Source: Myxococcus dinghuensis (lineage in GTDB: Bacteria; Myxococcota; Myxococcia; Myxococcales; Myxococcaceae). Taken from it: a stretch of DNA of 64,000 nt. Below are positions 10,401 through 30,491 of this stretch, piece by piece. Each line of letters opens with the position of its first letter. The stretch's first letter is position 1. The notes below the pieces were generated by a model, which worked only from the letters and a program-made list of their open reading frames with translations, did not search any database and was not told where the DNA came from. The DNA lies in assembly GCF_024198235.1 (NCBI RefSeq), contig NZ_JAKCFB010000022.1, positions 1 through 64,000 on the forward strand, in the 5' to 3' direction. The translations under genes were made by a program, and so were the position numbers.

Positions 10401-10660
10401 TCGCGGGCGCGCTGGCCCACACGCCCATGGAGGTGGCGCTGCCCGGACTCGCGCGGCTGTCCGAGGCGCTGCCCACCGTGACGGACAGCTTCAACACCAA
10501 TAGCCACTTCTGCCTCTCCGTCGTCGAGTTCGCGGACACCCTGGTGATGGGCCACGTCGAGCTGGCCCAGGGCGCGGGGGAGCGGGCGCGGAGCTGGCTG
10601 GACGAAGACGAGTTCCTGGTGCGCCGACGCGTCCACCGGGAGTTGGAGGAACGGACATGA
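7406..10660 (+). CDS. large hypothetical protein, ternary-system effector/scaffold candidate
   Basis: 1,084 residues without signal peptide or membrane helices. Three parts are visible: an N-terminal alpha/beta region (about 1-410), a Pro/Ala/Arg-rich linker (about 415-460), and a long alpha-helical repeat region (about 465-1080) of TPR/HEAT character with many Leu/Ala/Arg helices. No catalytic motif recognised. It is embedded between the protease module and the MoxR ATPase, with 1- and 4-base overlaps. In ternary systems this slot holds the large variable protein thought to receive the signal or act as effector; that assignment is inference. Confidence 0.78.
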   Translation: MSTLVFPSEEALQLALTSRIVPPEVQAAPARVHRTDAGELHVAPEVAVAKAVLTRLGELGIRPAPKSSRGGTEVSCWAEVLATRPAPLDGALGGAVLFLPSEPEALLPLAGELLRLGCDRQEACFARKGARQGALLRAMSPPYFTLTRAMDHAGGLRAFVPAVPGRTSVWVELGHVHPLARTLQPAAGTLLLVPARGPWLTLPDGPWTDLYQLTDLVLPEPAEDWTPRAATARLSVPLRLTRAARTEAASLWVLREEAVAQVESLVHTLPEGLLAQLRFAVAGTPDAPVIVLRARAGGRERPPELGLSGMAYAPLPQLADLYLPCDGLLEPPVRRDRLRALLTPEADTVTWLHPTGNGGFRAERLPEKAFQPLDTWVDYVVEGGAAELTAWMKGATFDFEAIEAASGEWLVGGGLPAPAAGRDEAEPDTRRSRRAAPAQATPVRAAKAATPAPDPGPTLATLTPAQLSAAEEELTQVEKTFLSLEEPPDAPERQRLWVRMAELNGQLGRGRDAALCWTRVLWEATGEEAGALATRWAHAERRASDTPEALLGRDAPSEDEVRVVVSQLVRAVRTDPATAPGSVPALQRWLDHHDTALDVRSLWLSRTALDALAGGDALGLARAGDRLLGMLQRGLSPSRDVPRFLRGSGNAADLPRLTAQLGALRERFERTARRRSSVEAPQELTQAYVRFVFACGMARLGQSDGARALAEAATRALDAKEPIHGFFLRAYAARVDQALEGQPLEAPLPPAIAAELNALASFQRYKVDRLRQASALLEPSERLDPARAFGRGTRDLRGEEFAALRDLQDVREVTATVQALVKRATAPRLQAAEQQRLIGGLLETLPRLAPARALPLMDQLVHAVDALPGEVQARLLGDALSLTALFGRADRATSLAARLREVLAGLAPESPAWGQGILEASLRGLRRVGLTRQSGQLVDASRRLLTHAKAPLAARLGVASGLATLGHVEEALPVFRQAFDALAAAQGALPDRLALTRSLAGALAHTPMEVALPGLARLSEALPTVTDSFNTNSHFCLSVVEFADTLVMGHVELAQGAGERARSWLDEDEFLVRRRVHRELEERT

Positions 10661-11703
10661 GCAGTCTTCCCCGGCGGGAGGAGCCTGCCGCCGACCCCAT
10701 CGCCGCCCTGGGCTTCGACGCCCTGGCGCGCGAGGCCCAGGGCTTGCGCGAGCGGCTCAACCGCTTCCGGCTGGCGCTGGGACGGCACTTCGTGGGCAAG
10801 CAGACGCTGGTGGACCTGATGACCGTGGCGGCGGTGGCGCAGGAGCCGCTGCTGCTGGTGGGGCCTCCGGGCACGGCGAAGTCGGACCTGGTGCTCAAGT
10901 TCCGCGAGGCGCTGGGGCTGTCGAACGAGGACTACTTCGAGTACCTGCTGACGCGCTTCACGGAGCCGTCGGAGGTGCTCGGCCCCATCGACATCAACCT
11001 GTTGCGACAGGGCCGCTACATCCGCCGCGAGGGCGGCAAGCTGCCCACCGCGCGGCTCGTCTTCCTGGACGAGGTCTTCAAGGCCAGCTCCGCCATCCTC
11101 AACGCGCTGCTCACGGTCATCAACGAGCGCAAGTTCTACCAGGACGGCGCGCCCCAGCCCGTGCGGCTCAAGGTGCTCTTCGCGGCCACCAACGAGCTGC
11201 CCGAGCACGCGGAGCTGGGCGCCCTGAAGGACCGCTTCTGCCTCAAGGCCGCGTGCCGGCCGGTGCAGGACCGCTACTTCCTGGAGCTGCTCGACTCCGG
11301 CCTGGAGTCGCAGACCCACCGCGAGCTGAACCAGAAGCCGTGGGCGGAGGGGCACGCCACGCTGGAGGACCTCCTCAAGGCCCACCGCTACCTGACGCTG
11401 ATGATGGGTCGCAAGGAGCCGGGGCCGGAGGGCCGCGAGCTGAGGGACCGCGACCTCTTCTTCCGGGACGAGCTGCTGCGCGAGTTCCGCCGCGTCGTCC
11501 AGACCCTCACGCGCGAGGACGGCGTGTTCATCAGCGACCGCAAGCTGGTGAAGCTCTACCGCCTGCTGCGCACGCGCGCGTGGATCTTCCACGGCGGCGC
11601 GGTGGAGCGGCAGGACCTCCAACTGCTGTCGTACCTCGGGGAGACGCGCGAGGAGATCGACCTGCTCGAGGAGAAGGTGCCCCGGCTGCTCGGCCTCACC
11701 TGA
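10657..11703 (+). CDS. MoxR/RavA-family AAA+ ATPase
   Basis: 348 residues. Walker A GPPGTAKS (69-76), Walker B LVFLDE (Asp 138), sensor-1 region FAATNELPE, and the MoxR-specific inserts LTRFTEPSEVLGP and SAILNALLTVINER. MoxR ATPases usually act as chaperones that load or activate a vWA-domain partner, here the protein encoded next. The ATG overlaps the preceding stop (ATGA). The paired FtsH-like and MoxR ATPases, with a vWA-like protein, define the ternary layout. Confidence 0.93.
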   Translation: MSSLPRREEPAADPIAALGFDALAREAQGLRERLNRFRLALGRHFVGKQTLVDLMTVAAVAQEPLLLVGPPGTAKSDLVLKFREALGLSNEDYFEYLLTRFTEPSEVLGPIDINLLRQGRYIRREGGKLPTARLVFLDEVFKASSAILNALLTVINERKFYQDGAPQPVRLKVLFAATNELPEHAELGALKDRFCLKAACRPVQDRYFLELLDSGLESQTHRELNQKPWAEGHATLEDLLKAHRYLTLMMGRKEPGPEGRELRDRDLFFRDELLREFRRVVQTLTREDGVFISDRKLVKLYRLLRTRAWIFHGGAVERQDLQLLSYLGETREEIDLLEEKVPRLLGLT

Positions 11704-11767
11704 GCCGGGCGCGTCACGAGGCGCTGGAGCCGCGCGCTCCAGGCCTCGCTCCCCTGGGAAGTGATAC

Positions 11768-13267
11768 ATGAGCGGCATGGCGGCACCGGAGTCGGGCGGC
11801 ACGCGGGACACGGAGCAGTGGTTGTGCGCGGGGTTGGGCCTGACGCGGCAGGAGGGGCTCGACGCGGAGGCGGTGGCGAAGGGCGTGCCCTGGCTGCTGG
11901 CCACGCTCGCCGAGTCGCCGTCGCTGCCGCCGCCCGCGCTGCTCTGGGACCTGGGACGGCTCGTCGCGGGGCAGCCCCTGGCACACGCCCTGCCCGTCCC
12001 CGACACGCTGCCCCGGCTGCGCGCCGCGGTGCGCGCCTACGACGACCACGTGCTCGCGAGGCTGGCGGCGGACCCACACCTCGAGGCGGTCTCCGCCGCC
12101 CTCGCCCGCCTGCCCGAGGAGCTCCGCCCCCGGGGCATGGCCTTCCTCGCCAACCGCATCCTCGCGCGCATCGGCTTCACCGAGGGCCGCTCGGTGAACA
12201 CCGGGCTCGCCCGGCGCACGCTGGAGCGGCCTCCCGCGGAGCTGTTGCAAGCCGGCTACGTCGCCTTGCGCGAACCCGGCCCCGGGCTGGAGCGCCTGGC
12301 GGAGGCCTACGAGGCGCTGGCGCGAGGCGCGCGTCGGGCCCACGCGCTGCTCGGGGACGCGGAGGCCTTCACGCTGGAGAACCTGGAGCACCTGCAGGGC
12401 AAGGCGCAACGGCTGGCGCTGGAGCAGGCGGTGGAGGCCGCCGAGGCGCTGTCGCGCGCCCTGCCACCCCGCATGCGCGCCCGCGCCGTGACGTCCGCCC
12501 CCACGCCCACCGCGCTCGAGGACGACGCCGCGTTCCCCCAGGGCGGCTTCTCGTCCGTCTCGAACGTCGGCAGCCTGGAGAACCTGGTCACCTCCGAGCT
12601 CGTCTACATGGAGGACGAGCCCACGCTGGACCTGTTCGACGTGCGCTACGTGGAGGGCGAGCTGCTCTACTACACGCGCGACGAGAGCGTGGCCGTCCGC
12701 CGCCGCCGGGTCGTGACCTTCGTGTTACCGGCGGGCTTCGCGGAGGCGCGGGTCAAGGACGCGGGGGTGAGGTGGCAGCGCGCGGTCGTGGCGCTCGGGC
12801 TGGTGCTGTGCCTGGTGCGCCGGCTGTCGGTGTGGCTGGGCGAGGAGGACCTGCGCTTCCAGGTCGTCTTCATCTGGGACCGGCCGGGCCCCGGGCCCCT
12901 CGACGCGGAGCGGGGCCTGTGCGAGCTGCTCCTGCGCGAGTGGCGCGCCCGGGGCATCGCGGAGGTCCTCACCCTGCCGGACCTGGGCACGGTGCTCGCC
13001 CAGGCCACGGAATCCTCTCGCCGCGCGAGAATCGACGTGGTGCGCATCGACGCCGCGCGGGAATCGCTCTCGCAGACGCCCGCGGTGGACCCGCGCGTGA
13101 GCCTGCGCAGCCTCGACCTGAGCGCCGCCTGCCCTCGCGTCGACGCGCCGCGCGAAGGTCCGGCGAGCCCCGAGGAATCCCGGGTCTCCGAGAGGTCCTC
13201 GGAGCCGGACGCACCTTGGGAGGCATGGACGGGCGTAACGCTTGAGCTTGCGCGAAGCCTTCTCTAG
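11768..13267 (+). CDS. vWA-like protein with degenerate metal site, MoxR partner
   Basis: 499 residues. The N-terminal half is helical. The second half begins with GGFSSVSNVGSLENL and LVYMEDEP, then FDVRYVEGELLYYTRDES and RRRRVVTFVLPA. This is the strand that carries DxSxS in vWA domains, but here the MIDAS residues are absent (VLPAGFAEAR). The helix/strand order afterwards (LGLVLCLVRRL, FQVVFIWDRP) still fits a vWA fold. The C-terminal ~70 residues are disordered, rich in Ser/Pro/Glu. It follows the MoxR gene by 64 bases, the expected position of its partner. The fold assignment is by pattern only. Confidence 0.72.
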   Translation: MSGMAAPESGGTRDTEQWLCAGLGLTRQEGLDAEAVAKGVPWLLATLAESPSLPPPALLWDLGRLVAGQPLAHALPVPDTLPRLRAAVRAYDDHVLARLAADPHLEAVSAALARLPEELRPRGMAFLANRILARIGFTEGRSVNTGLARRTLERPPAELLQAGYVALREPGPGLERLAEAYEALARGARRAHALLGDAEAFTLENLEHLQGKAQRLALEQAVEAAEALSRALPPRMRARAVTSAPTPTALEDDAAFPQGGFSSVSNVGSLENLVTSELVYMEDEPTLDLFDVRYVEGELLYYTRDESVAVRRRRVVTFVLPAGFAEARVKDAGVRWQRAVVALGLVLCLVRRLSVWLGEEDLRFQVVFIWDRPGPGPLDAERGLCELLLREWRARGIAEVLTLPDLGTVLAQATESSRRARIDVVRIDAARESLSQTPAVDPRVSLRSLDLSAACPRVDAPREGPASPEESRVSERSSEPDAPWEAWTGVTLELARSLL

Positions 13268-13312: not shown

Positions 13313-14671
13313 ATGCCGCGGTACGAGTTCAAGGAAGGTAGCTCCAACAAGTTCTGGGAGATCACGCTCGAGGGCAACTCCTTCACCGCGAAGTGGGGCC
13401 GCATCGGCACCGACGGCCAGGAGAAGACCCAGGAGTTCGACTCCGAGGAGGCCGCCCAGAAGGAGTACGACAAGCTCGTCCGCGAGAAGGAGAAGAAGGG
13501 CTACGCGCTGGTCGAGGGTGACGGCGAGGACGACGACGAGGACGGCGGCAAGTCCGTGACGGGCGCGTCCAACCCGGAGCTCGAGGCCGCCATCCTGAAG
13601 GACCCGGACGACGCGGACGCGTACCTCGTCTATGGCGACTGGCTACAGGCCCAGGGCGACCCGCGCGGCGAGCTCATCGCGCTGCAGCACGCGCAGGGCA
13701 AGGCCACTGGCGCCGAGGCCAGCACCGCCAAGCGCCAGGTGAACGCGCACATCAAGAAGCACCAGGCGCTGCTCCTGGGCGGGCTCACCAAGGCCTGGTC
13801 GGACGAGGAGCTGTCGGTGGAGTGGCACCTGGGCTTCATCCGCGAGGCGCGCATCGCGAAGGGTGACTACGACTCCGAGCTGGACGTCCCCGAGACGCTG
13901 AAGAAGCTGCTGGCGCACCCGTCCGCGCGCTTCCTCCGCTCACTCACCGTCGGCATGGTGGACATGGATGGGGAGAACTCCTACGACGACGTGACGGAGG
14001 TCATCGCGAAGGGCGGCGCGCGCCCCACCCTCCAGTCCCTGTTCCTGGGTGACTTCGAGTACCCGGACGAGACGGAGATCTCCTGGTCGCACATCAACGA
14101 CGTCTCGGCGCTGTACGAGGTGCTGCCCAACCTGCGCTCGCTGCGCCTGCGCGGCGGCTCGACGGAGCTGGGGAAGGTCGACCTGCCGGAGCTGCGTGAG
14201 TTCATCGTGGAGTCCGGCGGCCTGCCCCTGTCCGCGGTGAAGTCCATCGCGAGCGCGAAGTGGCCGAAGCTGGAAAAGTTGGAGATCTGGTTCGGCTCCG
14301 ACAACTACGGCGCCGAGGGCGGCGTGGAGGACATCCAGCCCATCCTCGACGGCAAGGGCCTGCCGAGCCTGAAGAAGCTGGGCCTGTGCAACTCCGAGTT
14401 CACGGACGCGCTGGCCAACGCGCTGCCGAAGGCGAAGGTCCTCCCGCAGCTCGAGCAGTTGGACCTGTCCAAGGGCACGCTGTCGGACACGGGCGCGCAG
14501 GTGCTCGCGGACAACGCGGCGGCGTTCAAGCACCTCAAGCACATGGACTTCCGTGAGAACACGCTGACGGGAGCGGGCACCAAGCTGGTGTCGAAGCTGT
14601 GCCCGAGCGTGGCGGCGGGCAGCCAGCGCGAGTACGACGAGGAGTACCGCTACTCGGCGGTCGGCGAGTAG
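13313..14671 (+). CDS. STM4015-family protein: WGR domain plus leucine-rich repeats
   Basis: 452 residues in three parts: a WGR domain at 1-65 (YEFKEGSSNKFWEI, AKWGRIGTDG) of the kind found with PARP and helicase proteins; a repeat-companion segment of the TIGR02996 type at about 85-130 (DDADAYLVYGDWLQAQGDPRG); and irregular leucine-rich repeats from about 165 to 430 (LRSLRLRGGS, LKKLGLCNSEFTD, LEQLDLSKGTLSD). No signal peptide. It lies 6 bases upstream of an ATP-grasp protein of the STM4014 family, reproducing part of the conserved STM4011-4015 neighbourhood. It may be the protein substrate or scaffold of that set; this is inference. Confidence 0.88.
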   Translation: MPRYEFKEGSSNKFWEITLEGNSFTAKWGRIGTDGQEKTQEFDSEEAAQKEYDKLVREKEKKGYALVEGDGEDDDEDGGKSVTGASNPELEAAILKDPDDADAYLVYGDWLQAQGDPRGELIALQHAQGKATGAEASTAKRQVNAHIKKHQALLLGGLTKAWSDEELSVEWHLGFIREARIAKGDYDSELDVPETLKKLLAHPSARFLRSLTVGMVDMDGENSYDDVTEVIAKGGARPTLQSLFLGDFEYPDETEISWSHINDVSALYEVLPNLRSLRLRGGSTELGKVDLPELREFIVESGGLPLSAVKSIASAKWPKLEKLEIWFGSDNYGAEGGVEDIQPILDGKGLPSLKKLGLCNSEFTDALANALPKAKVLPQLEQLDLSKGTLSDTGAQVLADNAAAFKHLKHMDFRENTLTGAGTKLVSKLCPSVAAGSQREYDEEYRYSAVGE

Positions 14672-14677
14672 CCCCGG

Positions 14678-15826
14678 ATGTCCGCGGCGCCGCCCTTCAT
14701 CCTCATTGGCAACGCGGAGAACCGGCGCGTCACCCTGTTCCAGGACGCGCTGGCCCGACAGGGGCTGCCACCGGCGACGGTGGTGCCCTGGCGGGAGCTG
14801 CTGGAGGACCCGGCGCGCCTGACGCGGCTGCCGGCCCCCGAGGCCCTCGTCCGCATCGACGCGGCGGGCGAGAGCTGGGCGGTGGAGAAGGCCCTGCTGA
14901 AGCGGGGCTACGCGGGCGCGGTGGGGCTGGGATGCACCGTCCTCACGCCCGCGCAGGTGGACGCGCTGGAGGAGGACCACGGGAGGATCCTCTGCCCCCG
15001 GCAGGCCCACGTGGGCTTCCTGGACGTCCTGTCGGAGCTGGACGCGTGCTTCGCGGAGCGCCCGGGGTGGCGGGTGCTCCAGCAGCCCCGGAGCATCGCG
15101 GACCTGTTCGACAAGCGCGTCACGTCGCGGCGCTACGCGTCGCGAGGCATCCCCGTCCCGGAGCCGCTGGAGGGCGTGACGGACGTGGCGTCCCTGCGCG
15201 AGCGGATGGAGGAGGAGGACTGCCGCGAGGTGTTCGTGAAGGTGTCGTGTGGCTCGTCGGCCTCGTGCCTCGCCATCTTCCGGCGCCGGCGGGGGCGCGA
15301 ATCGTTGCTCACCTCCGTCGAGCAGGCCTCGGCGGGTTGGTACAACTCGCTCCAGGTGCGCCGCATCGTCGAGCCGGAGCGCGTGGAGGAGGTGCTCGGG
15401 TTCCTGCTGCGCGAGGGTTCGCAGGTGGAGCGCTCCATCCTCAAGGCCCGGCTGGGCGGGGACTTCTTCGACTGTCGCGTCCTGGTCGTCGCGGGTGAGC
15501 CCGCGTTCATCGTGGTGCGCCAGAGCCGGCTGCCGATCACCAACCTGCACCTGGGCGGGTGGCGCGGGGACCTGGAGCGGTTGCAGGCGGCGGTGCCCCG
15601 GAACGAATGGGAGGCGGCGCTGGAGAGCTGCCGTCAGGTGGCGCGGCTCCATGATTGCCTCCACGTGGGCATCGATCTGCTCTTCGAGGAGTACTTCCAG
15701 GGCCACCGCATCGTGGAGGCGAACGCCTTCGGGGACCTGCTGCCCAATCTCCACCGGGACGGGCTGAGCGTCTACGAGTGGGAGATTCGCGAGGCGCTGT
15801 CGCGCCACGGCGTCACATCCGCCTGA
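14678..15826 (+). CDS. STM4014-family ATP-grasp protein
   Basis: 382 residues. An N-terminal Rossmann-like part (PFILIGNAENRRVTLFQDAL), then an ATP-grasp core: DLFDKRVTSRRYASRGIPVPE, the nucleotide-binding lysine strand VFVKVSCGSSAS, and the metal-binding end IVEANAFGDLLPNL. ATP-grasp enzymes join a carboxylate, activated as acyl phosphate, to an amine, thiol or hydroxyl. It is probably co-transcribed with the WGR/LRR gene (6-base gap). The related STM4013, STM4012 and STM4011 genes are at 30.5-33.5 kb. The substrate is unknown; ligation on or to the neighbouring WGR protein is one possibility. Confidence 0.85.
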   Translation: MSAAPPFILIGNAENRRVTLFQDALARQGLPPATVVPWRELLEDPARLTRLPAPEALVRIDAAGESWAVEKALLKRGYAGAVGLGCTVLTPAQVDALEEDHGRILCPRQAHVGFLDVLSELDACFAERPGWRVLQQPRSIADLFDKRVTSRRYASRGIPVPEPLEGVTDVASLRERMEEEDCREVFVKVSCGSSASCLAIFRRRRGRESLLTSVEQASAGWYNSLQVRRIVEPERVEEVLGFLLREGSQVERSILKARLGGDFFDCRVLVVAGEPAFIVVRQSRLPITNLHLGGWRGDLERLQAAVPRNEWEAALESCRQVARLHDCLHVGIDLLFEEYFQGHRIVEANAFGDLLPNLHRDGLSVYEWEIREALSRHGVTSA

Positions 15827-16916: not shown

Positions 16917-17213
16917 CCGGCGGCATCCTGTGTCGGGGCCCTGCGGAAGAAAAGCGCTCATTCGCGCCTGCCTGGTCGGGCGCCTCCACAGGGCGACCGA
17001 GGTTGCGCCGTCCAGACACGGCGAACCTGGCGACGGCCCGAGGAGAACGACCCGGGGCACCCTGTCCCGGCATGGAGTTCGCCAACCCGCCGCGAGCCTC
17101 CACCACGCGCCCGGGCACGCACCCGTGGCGTTCTTGAGACATGAATCACCCTTCAACATCATGCCCACCACTTCAACGCGCGCCGGGACGACGGACGCGA
17201 CAGTGGAGGCGAC
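16917..17213. other. divergent intergenic region, no gene seen
   Basis: 297 bases between the DTW gene and the ketosynthase operon. It must hold two divergent promoters. The stretch 17130-17175 is locally AT-richer and contains two CTTCAAC copies 24 bases apart, but I cannot assign a -35/-10 pair. Small frames here lack the expected codon bias. Confidence 0.4.
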
Positions 17214-18413
17214 ATGCGGGAGACGCGGGCCTGGGTGCTTCATCGGGGAGAGCGACAGCGGGAGGGTCAGGCAGTCCCGGGAGCGTTGGTCGAGGAGCCC
17301 TTCTCCTTCCCGGAGCCGGGCCCCGAAGATGTCGTGGCGGAGCCCATCTACGGCTGCTGGGAGGGCAACATGGGGCACGCGCTCCAGCGTGTCCCCGTGG
17401 ACATCTGCCGCCTGCGCCGAGAGGACAAGGTGGTGCTCGGCAACGCGGGCGTCGTCCGGGTGCTGGAGACCGGGAGCGCCGTCACGCGCGTGCGTCCCGG
17501 AGACCACTGCCTCGTCTTCTGCAACGCCGAGCCCGACGAGCACGGCTATCCCGTCAAGGTGCTGGCCTATGACGCCACCCGCACCATGGGCCTGTTGGCT
17601 CGCCAGACGCGGCTCTCCCAACACGTCCTCATCCCCCTCCCCCGTCAGGGTCGCCACTCCCTGAAGCAGTGGGCGGCCTTCTCGCTCCGCTACATCACCG
17701 CGTGGTCCAACTGGCGGCTCGCCTGGGGCTGCTTCCGCCTCCAGGTCAGCGAATCCGACTGCCCCGTCCCCTTCGTCGTCGGCTGGGGTGGCGGCGTGGC
17801 GTACGCGCAACTGCGCCTCGCCCGCTTCGCCGGCTGCCGCGTGGCCATGGTCACCTCACAGGAGGAGCGGCTGCGGCACCTGGAGTCGGTGGGCATCATT
17901 CCCATCGACCGCAGGGAGTTCCCGGACCTGCACCTCGACGCGGCCCGCTTCACCGCGGACGCCGACTACCGCCAGCGCTACACCCACTCCGAAAAGCGCT
18001 TCCTCGCGTGCGTGAAGGAAGCGGGACGTGGCCAGGACGTCTCCATCTTCCTCGACCACATCGGCGGACCGCTCCTCCAAGCCAGCCTCAAGGCCCTGGG
18101 GCGCGAAGGCGTCATCACCTCCGCTGGATGGAAGCTCGGCGCGGACCTGATGGACCTCTCGCGCTCCACCGAGTGCACGAAGCGCCACCAGCACATCAAC
18201 ACCCACTACGCGCGCTACTCCGAGGCCGTGGCCGCGGTGGGCTTCGCCGAGGAGTCGGGCTGGCTCCCCCCCGTGGATGACGAGCGCGTCTACGCCTGGG
18301 ACGAGGTCCCCCGGCTCGCCCAGGACGTCGAGGAGGGACGCGTCGCCTCATACTTCCCCCTCTACCAGGTCAACCCCGAGCAGCGCGTCCACGACTCGCG
18401 GGAGGCCGCATGA
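17214..18413 (+). CDS. zinc-binding (MDR superfamily) dehydrogenase/reductase
   Basis: 399 residues. N-terminal GroES-like part (EPIYGCWEGNMGHAL, LGNAGVVRVLETG, VRPGDHCLVF), then a Rossmann domain with VVGWGGGVAYAQLRLARFAGCRVAM (GxGGxxxxxxxxA, nucleotide binding) and IFLDHIGGPLLQASLKALGREGVI. It looks like the crotonyl-CoA carboxylase/reductase or enoyl reductase branch. It opens a seven-gene operon with two ketosynthase III genes, a carrier protein and a ligase, where it would reduce an enoyl or keto intermediate. GTGGAGG precedes the ATG. The next gene overlaps by 4 bases. The exact substrate is unknown. Confidence 0.85.
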   Translation: MRETRAWVLHRGERQREGQAVPGALVEEPFSFPEPGPEDVVAEPIYGCWEGNMGHALQRVPVDICRLRREDKVVLGNAGVVRVLETGSAVTRVRPGDHCLVFCNAEPDEHGYPVKVLAYDATRTMGLLARQTRLSQHVLIPLPRQGRHSLKQWAAFSLRYITAWSNWRLAWGCFRLQVSESDCPVPFVVGWGGGVAYAQLRLARFAGCRVAMVTSQEERLRHLESVGIIPIDRREFPDLHLDAARFTADADYRQRYTHSEKRFLACVKEAGRGQDVSIFLDHIGGPLLQASLKALGREGVITSAGWKLGADLMDLSRSTECTKRHQHINTHYARYSEAVAAVGFAEESGWLPPVDDERVYAWDEVPRLAQDVEEGRVASYFPLYQVNPEQRVHDSREAA

Positions 18414-19186
18414 GCGAGCTCGCGGAGGACCCGCTCGTCACCGCCCGGCGGAAGTTCAAGCACCAGTCCCAGTCCTTCGGCTTCACGCGCGTGCTCCTGG
18501 TGGACCTCATCACCATGACGTTCTCGCTGACACCCGCGCTGGTGGCGTGGTGGACCTTCGCCCTCTTCCTCCGCTGGAGCTGGGAGCAGGCGCTGTTCCC
18601 GCTCTGGGCCCTGCTGGCCCCCGGCGTCCTCGCGACCTCGTTCCTGGTGACGTGCTGGCTGGTGCGCCTGGGCATCCCTCGCATGCGGCCCGGGACGTAC
18701 AAGATGGAGATGTCCCGGGACTACCTGGCCTGGTTCATGACGCTGTGCCTCGGCCACTCGGTGCGCATCGCGGGGCTCCAGCCGTTCTTCTTCTCCTTCT
18801 ACCTGACCAAGTACCTCTACTGGCGCGCGATGGGTGCACGCATCGCCTACGGCGTGAACTCCTCCATCTTCGCCGTGCTCGCGGACTACCCGCTCCTGAC
18901 GGTCGGCAAGGGCTGCACCGTGGGCGCCAACGTCCTCCTCATCGGACACCTGTTCCTGGGGGACAAGGTGATGCTGGGGAACGTCACGCTCGGGGAGAAC
19001 GTCTTCGTCGGCGCGGGCGCGATGGTGGGACCGCGGACGAGCATCGGCGCGCGGAGCTGGATCGGCATGCACAACAAGCTCCTGAAGGACACCCTCCCCG
19101 AGGACTCGCGGGTGGAGAACTTCGAGTGGGAGCACTTCAACCCCGCGAATCGCGCGCAGCCCTCCACCGGGGCACGGCCCTCATGA
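18410..19186 (+). CDS. membrane protein with left-handed beta-helix acyltransferase-like domain
   Basis: 258 residues. Two or three N-terminal hydrophobic helices (about 24-95: LLVDLITMTFSLTPALVAWW, LLAPGVLATSFLVTCWLV), then hexapeptide repeats (about 150-235: VGKGCTVGANVLL, LGNVTLGENVFVGAGAMV) ending in IGMHNKL. Similar anchored domains form the tail of some non-ribosomal peptide synthetase-like and O-acetyltransferase proteins. ATGA overlaps on both sides tie it to the dehydrogenase and the first ketosynthase. It could acylate, or present an acceptor for, the acyl product at the membrane; this is inferred. Confidence 0.8.
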   Translation: MSELAEDPLVTARRKFKHQSQSFGFTRVLLVDLITMTFSLTPALVAWWTFALFLRWSWEQALFPLWALLAPGVLATSFLVTCWLVRLGIPRMRPGTYKMEMSRDYLAWFMTLCLGHSVRIAGLQPFFFSFYLTKYLYWRAMGARIAYGVNSSIFAVLADYPLLTVGKGCTVGANVLLIGHLFLGDKVMLGNVTLGENVFVGAGAMVGPRTSIGARSWIGMHNKLLKDTLPEDSRVENFEWEHFNPANRAQPSTGARPS

Positions 19187-20223
19187 ACGTCCTCGAACCC
19201 CGCCTGGGCCTCCAGGTGCTCGGCCATGGTCGCGCGCTGCCGGCCGACGGACCGGTGACGAACGCGGCGCTGCTCGCCCTGGACCCGGACCAGCAAGGCC
19301 GCGCCCCCGAGACGTTGACCGCGCTGGGGCGCAAGGTGACGGCGCGCCTGGGCTTCAGCCAGCGCTATCTCTCCCGGCGCCCTGGTGCTGCGCCCCATGA
19401 CGGCGAGGAGACGAGCGAGTCACTGGCCCTCGCGGCGGCGAGGAGCGCGCTCGGCGCACACGCGGGCCTGGAGGTCCAGGCGTTCGTCCACGGGACGACG
19501 ACGACCAGCCGCTACACCGGCTCGCAGGCCGCGGCCATCCTCGGTCGACTCGGGAGCCACGCCTCCGCGTGGGAGGTGAAGGCCGGATGCTCCGCCTCGC
19601 TGGCGAGCCTGCACCTGGCCCTGGCCCTGCTGGGCAGCGGCCACGACAACGTGCTCGTGAGCTGCGCGGAGACGCTGTCCAAGGTGATGAACCCCGCGAT
19701 GAAGGAGACGTGGTTCATCCTCGCGGACGGGGGCGCGGCCCTGTGGCTGAAGCGCGCGCCCTCGGCTCCCGACTTCGAGGTGCGCAAGTGCCTCTACGCC
19801 ACCGACGGCGCCCTCGTGGACCTGTACACCACGCCGGGCAGGCTCCCTCCGGACCGGGCCACGCTCGAAGCCGGCGGTTACGCCATGGCGGGCGACGGGA
19901 CGCGCCTGCGGGAAGAGGCCCTGCGTCGCTACCTCGAGATGCTCGGCGCGATGTTCCCGGGCGGCCGGGGCCTGAAGGACATCCGCTGGGTGGTGGCCCA
20001 TCAGATCAACCGCAAGCTCATCGAGCAGGTGCTCGAGGTGGGAGGACTCGGCGCACGCCTCGTCTGGAGCGCCGACCGCGTGGGCAACGTGGGCGGGGCC
20101 TCCGTCCTCTTCTCCCTGTCCGAGGCGCTGGAGCAGGGCCTGTTCGAGCCCGGAGACGGCGTGCTGCTGATGAGCGTGGGCGGAGGCCTGTCCTTCGCGA
20201 TGCAGCACTGGGTGAAGCGCTGA
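19183..20223 (+). CDS. ketoacyl-ACP synthase III-like enzyme 1
   Basis: 346 residues of thiolase fold with an apparently intact Cys-His-Asn triad: C136 in VKAGCSAS, H273 in VAHQINRKL, N302 in VGNVGGASV. The HQINRKL and GNVGGAS blocks are typical of KAS III. KAS III enzymes condense an acyl-CoA with malonyl-ACP or, in CerJ-like members, transfer acyl groups. It differs clearly from the second copy in this operon (21224-22249), so the two are not recent duplicates and probably do different steps. It overlaps the preceding stop and is followed after 15 bases by the carrier protein. Confidence 0.9.
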   Translation: MNVLEPRLGLQVLGHGRALPADGPVTNAALLALDPDQQGRAPETLTALGRKVTARLGFSQRYLSRRPGAAPHDGEETSESLALAAARSALGAHAGLEVQAFVHGTTTTSRYTGSQAAAILGRLGSHASAWEVKAGCSASLASLHLALALLGSGHDNVLVSCAETLSKVMNPAMKETWFILADGGAALWLKRAPSAPDFEVRKCLYATDGALVDLYTTPGRLPPDRATLEAGGYAMAGDGTRLREEALRRYLEMLGAMFPGGRGLKDIRWVVAHQINRKLIEQVLEVGGLGARLVWSADRVGNVGGASVLFSLSEALEQGLFEPGDGVLLMSVGGGLSFAMQHWVKR

Positions 20224-20238
20224 ACGCGGGAGCACGCC

Positions 20239-20475
20239 ATGGAACTCGTCGAACGCATTGGCAGGGCGCTGAGGACCGCCGGGATGGAGGACGTCCCCAC
20301 GGACACGTCGGAGCCGCTCGCCTCGTATGGAATGGACAGCCTGCTGATGGTGCTGTCGGTGGCCGCCCTGGAGAAGGAGTTCGCCTTGCGCATCTCCGGG
20401 CATGACTTCTCCGAGTCCTGCTTCGACAGCCTCGACACGCTGGCCGCGTGGCTGCGTCGTTCGGGGGCGACATGA
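20239..20475 (+). CDS. acyl carrier protein
   Basis: 78 residues, the normal ACP length, with the phosphopantetheine attachment motif YGMDSLL (Ser 34) and the helix-2/3 pattern (LEKEFALRIS, CFDSLDTLAAWL). The Leu usual before the serine is kept as Met-Asp-Ser, a common variant. The GCGGGAGCACGCC leader gives a GGAG site. It should carry the intermediates of this operon: the AMP ligase at 22246 may load it, the ketosynthases extend it and the SDR reduces them. The stop overlaps the SDR start (ATGA). Confidence 0.9.
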   Translation: MELVERIGRALRTAGMEDVPTDTSEPLASYGMDSLLMVLSVAALEKEFALRISGHDFSESCFDSLDTLAAWLRRSGAT

Positions 20476-21227
20476 GGGTCCTCGTCACCGGTGGTGGCTC
20501 CGACATCGGCTTCGCCATCGCGAAGCGCCGACTGGCCCAGGGGGACGACGTCGTCATCACCGCGTCGACCCCGGAGTCTCTGGAGCGCGCCCTGTCCCGC
20601 TACCGCGTGGAGGGACTCGACGCGAAGGGGCTCGTGCTGGACCTCGCGGCGCCAGCGCAGGGAGACGCCGCGCTCGGGGAGGTATTGGAGTCCGGGCTCC
20701 AGGGGCTCGTCCTCAACGCGTGGACCCGGCGGCCTCCGCTCCACCGCTTCCACGAGCTGCCCCAGGAGGCGCTGGACGCGGACGTCGCCGCGAACCTGAT
20801 GGGGAACGTCTGGTTGATCCGCCGGGTACTGCCCGCGATGGTCTCCGCGCGCCAGGGCCGCATCGTCCTCGTCTCGAGCGTCTCCACCGTCAACGGCACG
20901 GGCCGCTATGGCGCCTACATCCTGTGCAAGTCCGCGCTGGAAGGGCTGATGCGCAACCTCGCGGTGGACTACGGCGAGTTCAACGTCCTGTCCAACACGG
21001 TGCGCCTGGGCATCTTCAAGACGGAGCGGACGAAGAAGTACTGGTCCCGGGCCCGCTACGTGGAGCGGATGGGCGGCGTCATCCCGCAGGGCACGCTGGG
21101 CGAGCCTGGCCATGTGGGGGAAGTGCTCGACCCGCTGCTGGCCTCCCACCAGTACATCAACGGCGCGGTCCTCGACGTCACCGGTGGGCTTCCGATGTTC
21201 CGCCTGGAAGGAGTGTTGCGACCATGA
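20472..21227 (+). CDS. short-chain dehydrogenase/reductase (ketoacyl reductase-like)
   Basis: 251 residues. Cofactor motif TGGGSDIG (6-13), conserved NAW in place of NNAG, catalytic Ser in VSSVSTVNG and YxxxK in GAYILCKSA. The C-terminal VLDVTGGLPMF is the usual FabG-like closing strand. It probably reduces a carrier-bound beta-keto group using NAD(P)H. Start chosen at the ATGA overlap with the carrier protein; the stop in turn overlaps the second ketosynthase start. Confidence 0.9.
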   Translation: MRVLVTGGGSDIGFAIAKRRLAQGDDVVITASTPESLERALSRYRVEGLDAKGLVLDLAAPAQGDAALGEVLESGLQGLVLNAWTRRPPLHRFHELPQEALDADVAANLMGNVWLIRRVLPAMVSARQGRIVLVSSVSTVNGTGRYGAYILCKSALEGLMRNLAVDYGEFNVLSNTVRLGIFKTERTKKYWSRARYVERMGGVIPQGTLGEPGHVGEVLDPLLASHQYINGAVLDVTGGLPMFRLEGVLRP

Positions 21228-22249
21228 GCTTCCTGAGACCCGTGGAGCCCGTGTACCTGGTGGGGCCTCGCTCCTGGCTGCCGGAGCGGGTGGTCACCAA
21301 CCAGGACGTCCTCGACTGGATGGGAACCCGTGCCCGGCCCAGTTGGATCACCCACAGGACCGGCGTGGAGCAGCGGCGCTGGGTGGAGGACGGCCAGTCG
21401 TGCAGCGACGCGGCCGTCGCCGCGGCCTCGCGCCTGTTCGAGGACGCGAAGGTCGACCGCGCGCGCCTCGTCCAGGTGCTGCTGGCCACCGTCTCCGGGG
21501 ATTTCCCCACGCCTCCAACCTCGCCCCTGATTCTTCCCCGACTCGGACTGGAGCGGGTCGGCGTCCTGGACCTGAGCGCCGCCTGCGCGGGCTTCACCAG
21601 CGCGGTGCACGTGGGTGCGGCGCTCGCGGCCGCCACGGGCGGAGACCAGCTGGTCATCGCGGCGGACATCCGCTCCAAGTTCCTCAACCGCGAGGACCTC
21701 GCGACCACGGCCCTGTTCGGAGATGGCAGCGCGGCCTGCGTCGTCACGCGACGAGCAGAGGGCGCGCACTTCCAGCTCATCGCCAGCGAGCTGGCGGCGG
21801 ACGCCTCCATGGCCGACATCATCGCCATCCGTGCGGGTGGCTCGCGCCTGCCCCATCACCGGAACGATGACCCTTCCAAGGTCTTCCTCAAGATGGAGCA
21901 CGGCGCCACGCTCTTCATGAAGGGCGTGGAGAACATGTCCGCGGGCGCGGACGCGCTGCTGCGGCGACTGGACCTGAAGGTGTCGGACGTGGACTGGGTG
22001 GTGCCGCATCAAGCCAACCTCCACCTGATGCGGGCGGTGACCGAGCGGCTCGGGGTGGACCCGGCGCGGGTGGTGGAGACCGTGCGGTTCACCGGCAACA
22101 CCTCGGGCGCCAGCGTGGGCATCGCGCTCGCCCATCTCGTGGAGCAGCTCCCCTTGAAGCCGGGGCAGCGGGTGCTGCTCGTGTCCGCGGGGGCCGGCGG
22201 GGCGTCGGCCTGCGCGTTGCTGCACAGCCTCCAGGAGACGCCCTCATGA
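21224..22249 (+). CDS. ketoacyl-ACP synthase III-like enzyme 2 (FabH-type)
   Basis: 341 residues. C121 in SAACAGF, H262 in VPHQANLHL and N292 in TGNTSGAS give the FabH triad, and the N-terminus (VVTNQDVLDWMGT, ITHRTGVEQRRW) is classic FabH. It is closer to housekeeping FabH than the first ketosynthase of this operon. It probably performs a decarboxylative condensation priming step on the 78-residue carrier protein. Overlaps on both sides (ATGA) place it firmly in the operon. Confidence 0.92.
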   Translation: MSFLRPVEPVYLVGPRSWLPERVVTNQDVLDWMGTRARPSWITHRTGVEQRRWVEDGQSCSDAAVAAASRLFEDAKVDRARLVQVLLATVSGDFPTPPTSPLILPRLGLERVGVLDLSAACAGFTSAVHVGAALAAATGGDQLVIAADIRSKFLNREDLATTALFGDGSAACVVTRRAEGAHFQLIASELAADASMADIIAIRAGGSRLPHHRNDDPSKVFLKMEHGATLFMKGVENMSAGADALLRRLDLKVSDVDWVVPHQANLHLMRAVTERLGVDPARVVETVRFTGNTSGASVGIALAHLVEQLPLKPGQRVLLVSAGAGGASACALLHSLQETPS

Positions 22250-23622
22250 GCGACGCGCTCGCCTTCACCCGAGCCGACGGGACGGTGGCCCTCACCCTCG
22301 GCGGTCGCCCCCTCTCCTTCGAGGCGCTCCGCGAGGCCGTCGAGGCACGAAAGCACCGCCTCGGCGTGCTGCCGCCCGGCCTCGCCCTCCTGCGCGCCCA
22401 CCGGAGCCGCGAGTTCATCGCCACCTTCCTCGCCTTGTACGAAGCGGGAATCCCCACGGCGGTGCTCGCCGACGACTGGACTCCCTCGGAGGTGGCGTCG
22501 CGACGTCGGGGCCTCGGCGGCTGCTTCGAACTCGACGAGACCTTCAAGGTGTCCTGGAGGAGCGAAGAGACCGCGACGCGACATCACCCGGACACGGCCG
22601 TGGTGCTGTTCACCTCCGGCAGCACCGGCGAGCCTCGCGCCGTCCAACTCTCCCGGCGGAACATCGAGGCGAACATCGCGGCGGTCCGACGCTCGCTCGA
22701 CTTCGACGCGGCCTCGGAGCAGACGCTGTTCCTCCCCCTCTCCTACTCCTTCGGACTGCTGGGGCAGTTGCTGCCGGCACTCGCGGCGGGAGTGCCCACC
22801 ACGCTGCTCGACCACCTGGTCGAGCTGAAGGCCCGGCTCGACGACGGCCTGCTGGCGGGCATGGTCAGCGGGGTCCCCTCCCATCACGAAGCGCTGCTGC
22901 GTTTGATGGGGGCTGGAGCCTCACGGACCGAGGCCATCACCCACGTCGTCTCCGCCGGCGCGGCCTTGTCCCCCGCCCTCCGCCAGAGACTGGTGGCGGC
23001 GTTCCCCCGCGCACGCGTCTACGCCAACTACGGACAGACGGAGCTGTCGCCCCGAGCGCTGTGCCTGCGCAGCGACCACCCCGCCTTCCTGGGCCCGGCG
23101 ACGGGCCATCCCGTGGGAGGCCTGGTCGTGAGGCTCGGTCCGGACGGAGAGCTGTGGGTGCGGGGTGAGCAGGTGATGCTCGGCTATCTCGGCGACGACG
23201 CGGCCACGCGGGCCAAGGTGGAGGACGGGTGGCTGCGCACCGGAGACCTCGCGCGCATCGACGCGGACGGGTTGGTGACCCTGCTGGGACGCAATGACGA
23301 CCTGCTCAAGGTCGGTGGCGAGCGCATGAGCCCGTTCGAGATCGAGTCCGCCCTGCGCGAACTCCCCCACGTCGAGGACGCCGCCGTCTTCGGACGGGAA
23401 GATCCGCTCTATGGCACCACCCTGACCGGGATCCTCCAACTCGCTCCGGGCGCGCCCTGCCCGCTCAAGCGGGAGCTCAAGCAGGCGCTACGCGGTCGCC
23501 TTTCCGCGCACAAGGTTCCCGTCGACTTCTATCGGGCGGACCAGCTTCCCCGCTCCCGGAACGGGAAGCTGCAACGCAACCGCCTGGGGGAGCTGCTGCG
23601 CCCGGAGCTGCGCCTCGGGTGA
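22246..23622 (+). CDS. AMP-dependent acyl/aryl synthetase (adenylating ligase)
   Basis: 458 residues of ANL superfamily: A3 LFTSGSTGEPR, A5 NYGQTE, A7 WLRTGDLA, A8 GRNDDLLKVGGERM and A10 lysine in LPRSRNGKLQRN. It is shorter than typical acyl-CoA ligases because the N-terminal subdomain is reduced. It would activate a carboxylic acid as acyl-AMP and load coenzyme A or the carrier protein of this operon. Last gene of the seven-gene unit; convergent with the next gene. Confidence 0.9.
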   Translation: MSDALAFTRADGTVALTLGGRPLSFEALREAVEARKHRLGVLPPGLALLRAHRSREFIATFLALYEAGIPTAVLADDWTPSEVASRRRGLGGCFELDETFKVSWRSEETATRHHPDTAVVLFTSGSTGEPRAVQLSRRNIEANIAAVRRSLDFDAASEQTLFLPLSYSFGLLGQLLPALAAGVPTTLLDHLVELKARLDDGLLAGMVSGVPSHHEALLRLMGAGASRTEAITHVVSAGAALSPALRQRLVAAFPRARVYANYGQTELSPRALCLRSDHPAFLGPATGHPVGGLVVRLGPDGELWVRGEQVMLGYLGDDAATRAKVEDGWLRTGDLARIDADGLVTLLGRNDDLLKVGGERMSPFEIESALRELPHVEDAAVFGREDPLYGTTLTGILQLAPGAPCPLKRELKQALRGRLSAHKVPVDFYRADQLPRSRNGKLQRNRLGELLRPELRLG

Positions 23623-26456: not shown

Positions 26457-29400
26457 GTGCATCATCGACATCTCCTCTCCTGTTTGCTCACGGGAGCCAT
26501 GCTCCTCATGGGCGCCTGTGATCCAGGAGGGGGCGACACGCTCCCTCCCGAGGACACTCCCGCCTCCGCCGTCGCGACCGCCGCGCTGGTGAACGGCACG
26601 CTGGTCAATGGCCAGCCCGTCTCCGGGCTCTCCGCGAGCACCGGCGCGGAGCTCGTCTACACGCTGTCCGTTCCGGAGAACCAGAACCTGGTGACGTTCA
26701 CCATGACCGGTTCGAACGGCAACGCGGACATGTACGTCTCCTTCGGCACCACACCCACGACCACGACGGCGCAGTGCAGTTCGACGGCCACGGGCAGCAA
26801 CGGGACCTGCACCGTCGCCGGCCGCTCCAGCACCGGGACCTGGTACGTCCTCATCAAGGCCACCAGCACGTTCTCCGGCCTGAGCCTGACGGGCAGCTAC
26901 ACCCCCAATGGCACGGGCAGCGGCACGACCAAGGTGCTCGCGGACAACCAGGCCACGAAGGTCTCCGGGGCCCTGGGCGAGTGGGTCCTCTACACGATGG
27001 AGGTCCCCTCGCTCCAATCCGCCCTGAACGTGACGACGAGCGGAGGCACGGGGGAAGTGGACCTCTACCTGCGCCAGGGGAGCGCGCCCACGCTGACGAC
27101 CTTCGACTGCCGGTCCCGCAACACCGGCACGACCGACGGTTGCTCGGTGTCGAGGCCCAAGGCGGGCACCTGGTACGTCATGCTGCGCGGCTACTCGGCC
27201 TTCTCCAACGTGAACCTGCTCGGCGCGGTCGTCGCGTTCCCCGAGACGCTCTCCATCGGCCAGCCGCTCACCAACGTCTCCGTCGCCAAGGGCGCCTCGC
27301 GCTACTTCACCGTCAATGTCCCGACGGGGCAGAGCCTCCTCAAGGTCACCCTCGCCGGGGGAACGGGTGACGCCGACCTCTACCTCCAACGGGTGAACGC
27401 GCCCACGACGGCCACGTACACCTGCGTCTCCCGGGCCGGAGGAAACACGGAGAGCTGCTCGGTGACGAACCCTCAGGCGGGCACCTGGCACATCGTCCTC
27501 TACGGCTACTCGGCCTCCGCGGGCGCGGCGCTGATGGTCACCACCACGGGGGGCGGCCCCATCGGACTGCCCCTCACCAACGGCCAACCCCTCATCATCG
27601 ACAGCACCGAAGGCGGGCCCTTCGTCTACCGGATCGACGTCCCCGCCGACACCGGCAACCTCACCATCGAGGTCTCCTTCCTCTTCTCCGGCGCCTACGA
27701 CCTGTTCGTCCGCTACGGGAGCGAGCCCACCACCGGCGTGTACGACTGCTCGCGGACGTACGCCACGTCCCGAGAGACGTGCAGCTTCGACAAGCCCCGG
27801 GCCGGCACGTGGTACGTCCACATCCTCCCGGGCTACCCCTACAACGCCTTCAGCTACCTGAACCTCGTGGGGACCTATGGAGGCCGGGTCGCGACGACGC
27901 CGCTCCAGAACGGCCAGGCGACGGCGCCCGTCACCGAGGACCCCCGTGACTTCGCCTATTACACGCTGGAGGTCCCCGCGGGGCAGAAGCGCCTGGCGTT
28001 CTGGATGACCGGCGGCACCGGCTATCCCTACGTCTACGCGAAGCTCGGGGGCATTCCGGTGGAGACCCAGCCGCGCTGCTCGCTCATCTCCAACGGCCCC
28101 TGCATCATCGAGAACCCCCAGCCTGGCACCTGGTACTTCTGGCCCACCGCCATGAACGGCTTCCAGAACGTGTCGCTCACGGCCGAGTACACGGCGGACA
28201 CGACCCAGACCCCCGAGCCGCTGCGCAAGGACGAGCCGCGCACGGGGCTCGCGGGCACCCCGCTGCGTCCCCGCCTGTTCGTGCTCGAGGTTCCCCCCAA
28301 CCAGCTCAACCTCCGGCTCCAGACGTCGGGTGGAACGGGCGTCGCCCGGCTGCGCGCGAAGCGCGGCGCCCTCCCCACCGCCAGCACCTACGACTGCGCC
28401 TACTCCTGCGACATCGAGCGCCCGGAGGGCGGAACCTGGTACGTGCAGTTGGAGGGGGAGTCGACCTACTCGGACGTCACCCTGAGCGCCACCTACGCCA
28501 CCCCGGTGACGGCGCCGGACATGGAGTACGCGCCGGAGATCACCAACTACCCGTCCCGGCGGTACTTCAAGATGGACGTCCCCCCGGCGAGCATCGCCCT
28601 CAAGGCGTACACGGGCGGCCGGGCCGAGACGAAGCTCTACGTGCGGCGGGGACGGCTGCCCTCCCCCACCGAGTACGACTGCGTCTCCATGGCGCCCGGC
28701 AAGGTCAAGCAGGAGTGCAACATCAACGCGCCCCAGGCCGGTGAGTGGTTCGCGCTGGTGGAGTTCGTCGTCACCTACCCCGAGGTTCCGGAGTCGTTCT
28801 TCTGGGAGCACCTCGAGACGGGCCCCATCTCGGACATCGAGGACGGCGTGCCCGCGCTCGTCTCCGGTCCCCCCAAGTCCTTCCGGACGCTGCGCTTCCA
28901 GGTGCCCGAGGGCGCGCCCTATCTCTTCGCGGAGCTGCTGGACGCGCGGCTGACCCCGAAGTCCGCCTATGCCTACCTCTACGTGCGCCACGAATCCGAC
29001 GCGGCCAACGGCTTCGCGGTGTGCAGGTCCACGGGCCTGTGTGACCTCCCCAATCCACGGCCCGGCACCTGGTACCTCACGGTGCAGGTGCCCACCTATG
29101 GGGGCCCCACAGCGGACTTCTCCGGCGCCGTCCGCGCCACGACGACGGGCCGCGCGCTGCGGCCCCTGGTCAACGCCATCGCCGAGTCCCTGCTCGACAG
29201 CGCGCAGAACGTGACGCACAACTGGCGGTTCGAGGTGCCCGTGGGCGCCACGGACGTGCTGTTCCAGCTCAACGGCACCGACGGCAACTCGGACCTGTAC
29301 GTGAAGCACGGCTCGCCGGCCTCCGCCTCGTCCTACGACTGCGCCTCCGCGAACACGCCGGGCAGCGAGGAGACGTGCGCCATCACCCAGCCGCAGCCGG

Positions 29401-30491
29401 GGACCTGGTACGTGACGGTGGTGGACCGCACGGGGCCGGTCGGCTGGCGCGGGCCGACCGTCCGCGCCACCTACGCGATGTCCCCGGGCGAGGGCATCCC
29501 CGAGCTGACGCCCTACGCCTCACGCGCCGGGCTGAGCGCGCCCAAGTACTCGCAGAAGATGTGGAAGCTGGAGGTGCCTCCGGGCCAGAGCACGCTCTGG
29601 TTCGCGACCGAGCACGGCAGCGGCACGGTCAACCTGAAGGTGAAGCGGGGTGGCCGCGCCGTCACCGGCCAGACGTTCGACTGCACCACCACCGGCACCG
29701 GCAACCTGAAGCAGTGCCTGCTCACCAACCCGCAGCCCGGGACGTGGTTCGTGACGCTGACCGGCGACGAGGCCTACGAGTTCGTCACCCTGACGGGTGG
29801 CTACTTCCAGGCGGACACGGTGACGTCGCTCACCAACGCCATCCCCGCCACCAACCTCCGCCTCGACGCCGGCAAGGCCCAGTACTTCCACCTGGACGTG
29901 CCCGCCAACGCGGCCATGTACTCGTTCGAGCTGCGCTTCGACACGACCGCCACCGCCGAGGAGATCGACGTCCGCATCCAGCAGGGCACCCTGCCCACCA
30001 CCACGAGCCAGCGCTGCGCGTACCTCGCCAAGGGCTCCGTGCGGTGCGCCGTCGCCAGTCCCGCCGCGGGCCCCTGGTATGCCCGCGTGCTGAGCGCCAG
30101 CAAGGCCTTCGACCACGTCCGCGTCGGGGCGTTCCACGGCCCACGGCTGGATGACGCCCCGCTGCTGCTCAACCAGGACTACTTCCTGGGCGTCAGCGGC
30201 TCCTCGGGCACCGTGCGCACATACAAGGTCATCGTGCCCGAGGGCACGGGAACCTTCACGGTGTCGACGGGCTACAACACCACGGGCGGCCAGGGCACCT
30301 ACTACGGGAACCTGAGCCTCGCGGTGCGCAAGGACGCCCCGCCGACGGCGACGGAGCGGGACTGCGCCTACCCCTTCCCCAGCCCCAGCTCCACCTGCAG
30401 CATCAACAACCCCGCCCCGGGGACGTACTTCGTCAGCCTCACGTTGACGGACAACAGCTACAACCTGTGGGTGCTGCCGAACGCCCGGTAG
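26457..30491 (+). CDS. lipoprotein built of twelve tandem PPC-type domains
   Basis: 1,344 residues. GTG start with GAGG 6-9 bases before; the signal peptide ends in the lipobox LMGAC (Cys at about 21). After a Pro/Thr-rich spacer the whole chain is twelve consecutive units of about 105 residues, each with the PPC/bacterial pre-peptidase pattern: F..(V)P....L, GGTGDADLYL or variant, YDC....ETC, NPQAGTWYV and a closing G.Y strand. The two cysteines of each unit probably form a disulfide. There is no catalytic domain, unlike most PPC proteins, where the domain trails a protease. A cell-surface adhesive or binding rod is the likeliest role. Confidence 0.88.
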   Translation: MHHRHLLSCLLTGAMLLMGACDPGGGDTLPPEDTPASAVATAALVNGTLVNGQPVSGLSASTGAELVYTLSVPENQNLVTFTMTGSNGNADMYVSFGTTPTTTTAQCSSTATGSNGTCTVAGRSSTGTWYVLIKATSTFSGLSLTGSYTPNGTGSGTTKVLADNQATKVSGALGEWVLYTMEVPSLQSALNVTTSGGTGEVDLYLRQGSAPTLTTFDCRSRNTGTTDGCSVSRPKAGTWYVMLRGYSAFSNVNLLGAVVAFPETLSIGQPLTNVSVAKGASRYFTVNVPTGQSLLKVTLAGGTGDADLYLQRVNAPTTATYTCVSRAGGNTESCSVTNPQAGTWHIVLYGYSASAGAALMVTTTGGGPIGLPLTNGQPLIIDSTEGGPFVYRIDVPADTGNLTIEVSFLFSGAYDLFVRYGSEPTTGVYDCSRTYATSRETCSFDKPRAGTWYVHILPGYPYNAFSYLNLVGTYGGRVATTPLQNGQATAPVTEDPRDFAYYTLEVPAGQKRLAFWMTGGTGYPYVYAKLGGIPVETQPRCSLISNGPCIIENPQPGTWYFWPTAMNGFQNVSLTAEYTADTTQTPEPLRKDEPRTGLAGTPLRPRLFVLEVPPNQLNLRLQTSGGTGVARLRAKRGALPTASTYDCAYSCDIERPEGGTWYVQLEGESTYSDVTLSATYATPVTAPDMEYAPEITNYPSRRYFKMDVPPASIALKAYTGGRAETKLYVRRGRLPSPTEYDCVSMAPGKVKQECNINAPQAGEWFALVEFVVTYPEVPESFFWEHLETGPISDIEDGVPALVSGPPKSFRTLRFQVPEGAPYLFAELLDARLTPKSAYAYLYVRHESDAANGFAVCRSTGLCDLPNPRPGTWYLTVQVPTYGGPTADFSGAVRATTTGRALRPLVNAIAESLLDSAQNVTHNWRFEVPVGATDVLFQLNGTDGNSDLYVKHGSPASASSYDCASANTPGSEETCAITQPQPGTWYVTVVDRTGPVGWRGPTVRATYAMSPGEGIPELTPYASRAGLSAPKYSQKMWKLEVPPGQSTLWFATEHGSGTVNLKVKRGGRAVTGQTFDCTTTGTGNLKQCLLTNPQPGTWFVTLTGDEAYEFVTLTGGYFQADTVTSLTNAIPATNLRLDAGKAQYFHLDVPANAAMYSFELRFDTTATAEEIDVRIQQGTLPTTTSQRCAYLAKGSVRCAVASPAAGPWYARVLSASKAFDHVRVGAFHGPRLDDAPLLLNQDYFLGVSGSSGTVRTYKVIVPEGTGTFTVSTGYNTTGGQGTYYGNLSLAVRKDAPPTATERDCAYPFPSPSSTCSINNPAPGTYFVSLTLTDNSYNLWVLPNAR

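Follow-up and report, generated by a model that had tools for sequence, protein, structure and literature searches.

Seven open reading frames, all with high GC3, follow one another on the forward strand between positions 17214 and 23622 of the window, the 64,000-nucleotide stretch of Myxococcus dinghuensis DNA that was analysed. They encode, in order, an NAD(P)-dependent reductase of the MDR family, distantly related to crotonyl-CoA reductases and probably trans-acting (17214..18413; matches to PF00107 and TIGR01751), a putatively membrane-anchored left-handed beta-helix protein of hexapeptide acyltransferase type (18410..19186; PF00132 and a weak match to TIGR02353), a divergent KAS III enzyme, here called KS1 (19183..20223), an acyl carrier protein (ACP) with a DSL motif (20239..20475; PF00550, 34.8 bits), a FabG-like SDR ketoreductase recognized by its profile matches (20472..21227), a second, FabH/BioZ-like KAS III enzyme, KS2 (21224..22249), and an AMP-forming acyl/aryl-acid ligase of 458 residues with a short N-terminal part (22246..23622; PF00501 and PF13193). 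Pfam and NCBIfam profile matches back the class of each of the seven genes and, together with the reading frames, they agree with the compact pathway and the gene order described in an earlier note made from the letters alone; modular PKS and NRPS genes are absent from the unit, as that note had stated. Its statement that all genes overlap start to stop is accurate at five of the six junctions, where 4-base ATGA overlaps occur, and has to be amended for KS1 and the ACP gene, which lie 15 bases apart. Purifying selection acts on all seven genes (dN/dS of 0.08-0.25 per gene, measured against the orthologs of locus L043). The gene set, its order and both catalytic triads are genuine and not a product of chance, since the whole set is kept in ten other Myxococcaceae loci and shows these dN/dS values against L043.

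The genes are preceded by a conserved leader (17109..17213, forward strand) with a sigma-70-like promoter element and an overlapping inverted repeat. Across 11 orthologous leaders the ∼100 bases upstream of the MDR gene are conserved, while the DNA farther upstream is unrelated. The near-invariant block within them, CATTCTTGAGACCTGAATCACC-N-TTCAACATCAT, contains TTGAGA (at 17134), a 17-base spacer and CATCAT (ending at 17162), the −10 element reading TATGAT in locus L040. This is the sole promoter-like match in the region, where 0.2 would be expected, and a TGAA-N6-TTCA inverted repeat, spotted by eye, overlaps it. The leader, as a sequence match and not a mapped start, fits a single operon transcript.

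Within the genus, 10 of 27 genomes have a KS1 ortholog, as does a single genome from a sister genus, and the same genomes carry orthologs of the MDR protein (at least 81% identity) and of the hexapeptide protein (at least 74%). A search for the same gene order elsewhere, which had been proposed as a check, finds it in ten further Myxococcaceae loci: the seven genes are collinear in all ten relatives read, with the inverted ligase gene of L040 as the sole exception. DNA similarity begins at 17.05-17.2 kb and ends at ∼23.6 kb in each relative compared, with sharp boundaries. Across the 11 Myxococcaceae genomes some eight unrelated chromosomal contexts surround the unit; flanking genes, inspected over ∼5 kb per side, are common to the window and L043 only, and within the group L011-L013, and differ in all other loci. 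As judged by these sequence comparisons, the seven genes and their leader are one coherent, relocating unit with its own promoter-like element. A plasmid collection searched with KS1 and the hexapeptide protein gave no match.

The site occupied in M. dinghuensis is itself a variable region, as shown by the length of the interval between window positions 15826 and 30716. In a genome that lacks the unit (G112), the matches to window positions 14678-15826 and 30716-31057 are 1.5 kb apart, versus 14.9 kb here, and across other genomes the same interval spans 3.7-10 kb. Bounded by two conserved genes, it holds in the window the operon together with other genes. At 26457-30491 of the window lies the gene of a 1344-residue protein whose start resembles a lipoprotein signal and which contains eight stretches of PPC domain, and upstream of the operon (7406-13267) FtsH-type ternary-system genes (fvmX7, bpMoxR ATPase, ivWA domain) stand in a row and resemble a conflict system.

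The MDR protein scores 31.3 bits with PF00107, just below the cut-off; with crotonyl-CoA carboxylase/reductase it shares the MDR fold and a partial match along the chain, and at 57 bits against a TIGR01751 cut-off of 378 it was not assigned that identity. Most of its paralogs, which are 45-54% identical, lie within or next to modular PKS/NRPS operons in other myxobacteria, which suggests that it is a trans-acting reductase. This paralog family (loci L102-L107) is apparently unnamed; members L102, L106 and L107 adjoin or lie between modular PKS genes, while L103 and L104 have acyl-CoA dehydrogenase (ACAD), ligase and carrier genes close by, L104 being beside an NRPS. The hexapeptide protein, of 258 residues, resembles the Pls/PosA NRPS terminal domain in having a hydrophobic N-terminal part followed by hexapeptide repeats (model positions 5-202 of TIGR02353), and differs from it in being free-standing and without an NRPS; its partial match of 49 bits, against a cut-off of 423, does not make it a member of that family. 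Hydrophobic segments lie at about residues 27-54 and 61-90, and His180, a candidate catalytic base, is retained in six orthologs and four remote relatives. Because of these two segments and of a histidine in the repeat domain that is kept in remote relatives, the protein is suggested to act in acyl transfer at the membrane, in line with the membrane step that the earlier note had envisaged. An AlphaFold2 model of this protein (pLDDT 45), like that of KS1 (pLDDT 53), came from a shallow alignment and is too poor to use.

Both KAS III enzymes have complete catalytic triads. C136/H273/N302 of KS1 is invariant in an alignment of 16 sequences, C121/H262/N292 of KS2 in one of 8, and both align on C112/H244/N274 of E. 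coli FabH. KS1 and KS2 are ∼28-30% identical over their aligned parts and form two separate KAS III clades, both apart from FabH, in a quick tree with some long branches outside these clades. The claim of two strongly different KAS III enzymes with C-H-N triads is therefore upheld by phylogeny and alignment alike, and the loss of triad residues named as grounds for rejecting it did not appear. A remote KS1 relative, L039 of genome G091, keeps the C-H-N residues and is accompanied by a ligase but not by the operon, while weak KS1 matches in G016, G031 and G035 sit in the tree among FabH-like enzymes, outside the KS1 clade. No characterised member of the KS1 clade was found. With FabH the two enzymes share the fold family and the triad; they differ in clade and in scores below the curated cut-offs (92 bits for KS1 and 237 for KS2 against 292 for the fabH model), so that neither was identified as FabH. 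They also differ at the ACP-docking Arg249 of FabH, replaced by Lys in KS1 and His in KS2. Trp32 and Arg36 are CoA-site residues of FabH. KS1 has Lys in place of the CoA-stacking Trp32, and its ACP-side residues are altered too; the KS2 of myxobacteria retains the Trp and the Arg, both of which the KS2 of Legionella has lost.

It is in Legionella that the closest counterpart of the operon is found. A genome scan with KS2 returned five myxobacterial and three Legionella loci. The Legionella order KS1-FAAL-AMP-ACP-SDR-KS2 is fixed in 15 further genomes read as well as in L014, L016 and L108, with genes for a carboxyltransferase (CT), an ACAD and a GH3-domain protein running divergently upstream; L187 gave no GH3 match within the examined stretch and is otherwise arranged as the others. 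Among 143 genomes of Legionella's order, 30 have KS1, each with the FAAL gene adjoining, and a KS1 search of 369 gammaproteobacterial and 398 pseudomonadotal genomes gave, outside Legionella, only matches at the level of FabH (at most 153 bits versus 641). The Legionella orthologs are 39-44% identical to the operon protein for KS1, 46-47% for KS2 and 32-33% for the ACP, which occupies the same place before the SDR gene. When the whole genome of the window is searched with the SDR and the ligase of Legionella, the operon proteins are the best matches by wide margins (248 bits, the next match scoring 70, and 317 bits, the next scoring 98). Myxococcaceae and Legionella sequences form joint clades for KS1 and KS2 (99% and 100% SH-aLRT), and therefore both KAS III enzymes were already distinct before these lineages separated or exchanged genes. 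By these similarities a five-gene core (KS1, AMP ligase, ACP, SDR and KS2) has its orthologs in the Legionella operon. Neither the MDR gene nor the hexapeptide gene matched the Legionella loci, and both were therefore rejected as parts of this core. Conversely, neither the FAAL gene nor the divergent CT-ACAD-GH3 genes occur in the unit or on either side of it in the relatives that were read. FAAL-like genes of the window's genome lie in a 2784-residue frame and beside an apparent type III PKS; the latter (contig 13 of G000, L184 5752-9431) is chalcone-synthase-like, its family being read from sequence, and may belong to an alkylpyrone/alkylresorcinol locus. L108, from a Legionella genome with a FAAL that matches the L. 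pneumophila enzyme, has a second ACP-like gene (14408-14635), placed between KS2 and an MFS transporter gene and on the other strand.

The Legionella operon appears to be the legionellol locus. According to a genome survey (PMC5126622, citing Johnston et al. 2016), the unusual polyketide legionellol has been assigned to lpg2223-41, which consists of small discrete genes, and has a role in sliding motility, perhaps as a surfactant. The operon is mapped to this locus because lpg2228 is a KAS III (PMC4273665), lpg2233 is an ACP (PMC13200437) and the FAAL of L108 matches LpFAAL (3KXW) over 581 residues with 1295 bits; the mapping, a strong inference, thus uses gene classes and the identity of LpFAAL instead of locus tags. 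LpFAAL has been crystallised with lauroyl-adenylate (PMC11837247). The potential markers of the mature infectious form given in PMC4273665 include lpg2228, which also figures in a table of the LetS regulon for bacteria in water (PMC5928044); for lpg2228-2233 only expression and annotation mentions were found in the literature. Common to both loci are the five core orthologs, with ACP, SDR and KS2 contiguous and KS1 upstream, and the lack of a modular PKS. The Legionella locus has in addition the FAAL gene between KS1 and the ligase, the divergent CT-ACAD-GH3 genes and, close by, genes for an MFS protein and a fatty-acid hydroxylase; particular to the myxobacterial unit are the MDR and membrane hexapeptide genes, the ligase in last position and the CoA-site Trp/Arg kept in KS2. 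The earlier note had named clear orthology between the whole set and a characterised pathway as evidence against its proposal, and such orthology is half present: five of the seven genes are orthologous to the apparent legionellol operon, while the MDR and hexapeptide genes are without counterpart there. The myxobacterial operon probably makes a lipid related to legionellol, although its starter and product may differ much from those of Legionella since FAAL and CT/ACAD/GH3 are missing. The earlier note had left open a lipid or a signalling molecule, attached at the membrane; the reported links of the Legionella product to sliding motility and surfactant activity point more to a released surface-active lipid than to a signal.

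Several other roles can be envisaged for the two KAS III enzymes. They might form a heterodimer for one special condensation or cyclisation, as in PqsBC, and their strict co-occurrence in both lineages, like the presence of PqsC among the weak PDB matches of KS1, would suit such a pair. In PqsBC-type pairs some catalytic residues are missing from one partner. The triads of KS1 and KS2 are both complete, which sets them outside this group and makes the heterodimer an improbable solution. KS2 has also been considered in a dicarboxylate-primed, BioZ-like pathway to a biotin precursor or similar compound, BioZ being its closest solved relative (its top PDB matches are 3-oxopimeloyl-ACP synthases, 166 bits). 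However, of the carboxylate-binding set S84, R147 and S287 of BioZ (PMC8024396), only the last is kept, as S294, the others being V90 and F153 (Ile and Phe in Legionella); the starter of KS2 is thus probably not a dicarboxylate, and KS2 was not classed as a BioZ. Its score of 242 with PRK05963, a KAS III equivalog model beside fabH in its match list, is far from the cut-off of 437, and most genomes of the genus lack the operon, which would not be expected of a biotin gene. A role of this kind is very hard to sustain.

A somewhat stronger contender, still unlikely, is that KS2 performs the only condensation and that KS1 is an acyl transferase of KAS III fold, moving the chain from the ACP to an alcohol, an amine or a second carrier as CerJ and ChlB3 do. 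The distance of KS1 from FabH (114 bits, the cut-off being 249), its Lys in place of Trp32 and its changed ACP-side residues would be compatible with this, and CerJ and ChlB3 are likewise discrete KAS III enzymes that work with a discrete ACP. Yet these acyl transferases have a Cys-His-Asp triad (PMC9573744), while C-H-N is found in every KS1 ortholog as well as in the remote relative L039, and CerJ is not named among the PDB matches of KS1. Asn is invariant in KS1 and KS2, and neither was placed with CerJ/ChlB3. Two condensing enzymes are favoured over a CerJ-type acyl transferase, because both keep Asn whereas CerJ and ChlB3 have Asp; of the two options in the earlier note, that of sequential condensations is the better fit, ahead of a single condensation combined with an acyl transfer.

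The reading preferred here, with slightly more confidence than doubt, is that the operon relocates and encodes a stand-alone type II polyketide/fatty-acid pathway based on KAS III enzymes, with a core homologous to the apparent legionellol operon. The AMP ligase would activate a carboxylic acid and load it onto the ACP; alternatively, KS2 could take an acyl-CoA starter, since the CoA-site Trp and Arg of FabH are retained. As these residues are kept in myxobacteria and lost in Legionella, the pattern fits a CoA-bound starter in the former versus an ACP-bound, FAAL-supplied starter in the latter. KS2 and KS1 would then catalyse at least two decarboxylative condensations with malonyl-ACP, and the SDR would reduce the beta-ketones to hydroxyls. 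With a ketoreductase present and a dehydratase absent from the operon, the chain would be expected to stay hydroxylated, as a beta-hydroxyacyl or short 1,3-polyol chain, to which the MDR protein may add one reduction in trans. Finally, the membrane-bound hexapeptide enzyme would move the finished acyl chain from the ACP to an acceptor at the inner membrane, giving an amphiphilic product. A more far-reaching proposal, put forward tentatively, is that two KAS III enzymes, without KAS I/II or a chain-length factor, do all the iterative chain building in a movable seven-gene unit of predatory myxobacteria, shared by descent or transfer with amoeba-dwelling Legionella, and that the product is a new class of membrane-assembled hydroxylated lipid.

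On the basis of gene homology, the operon is not an orphan and represents a variant of a known, poorly studied pathway. What is new is the link with Legionella, the definition of a core of five genes and the recognition of a movable unit of seven that carries a promoter-like leader of its own. An unannotated myxobacterial operon is thereby tied to a Legionella natural-product locus that, unlike most, has a reported product; five conserved core enzymes are defined, and the MDR and membrane hexapeptide transferase proteins mark the myxobacterial version. The function of KS1 becomes directly testable in a harmless bacterium that is easily grown and, if both KAS III enzymes elongate, this would be a polyketide system built solely on enzymes of a class that normally serves the first step only.
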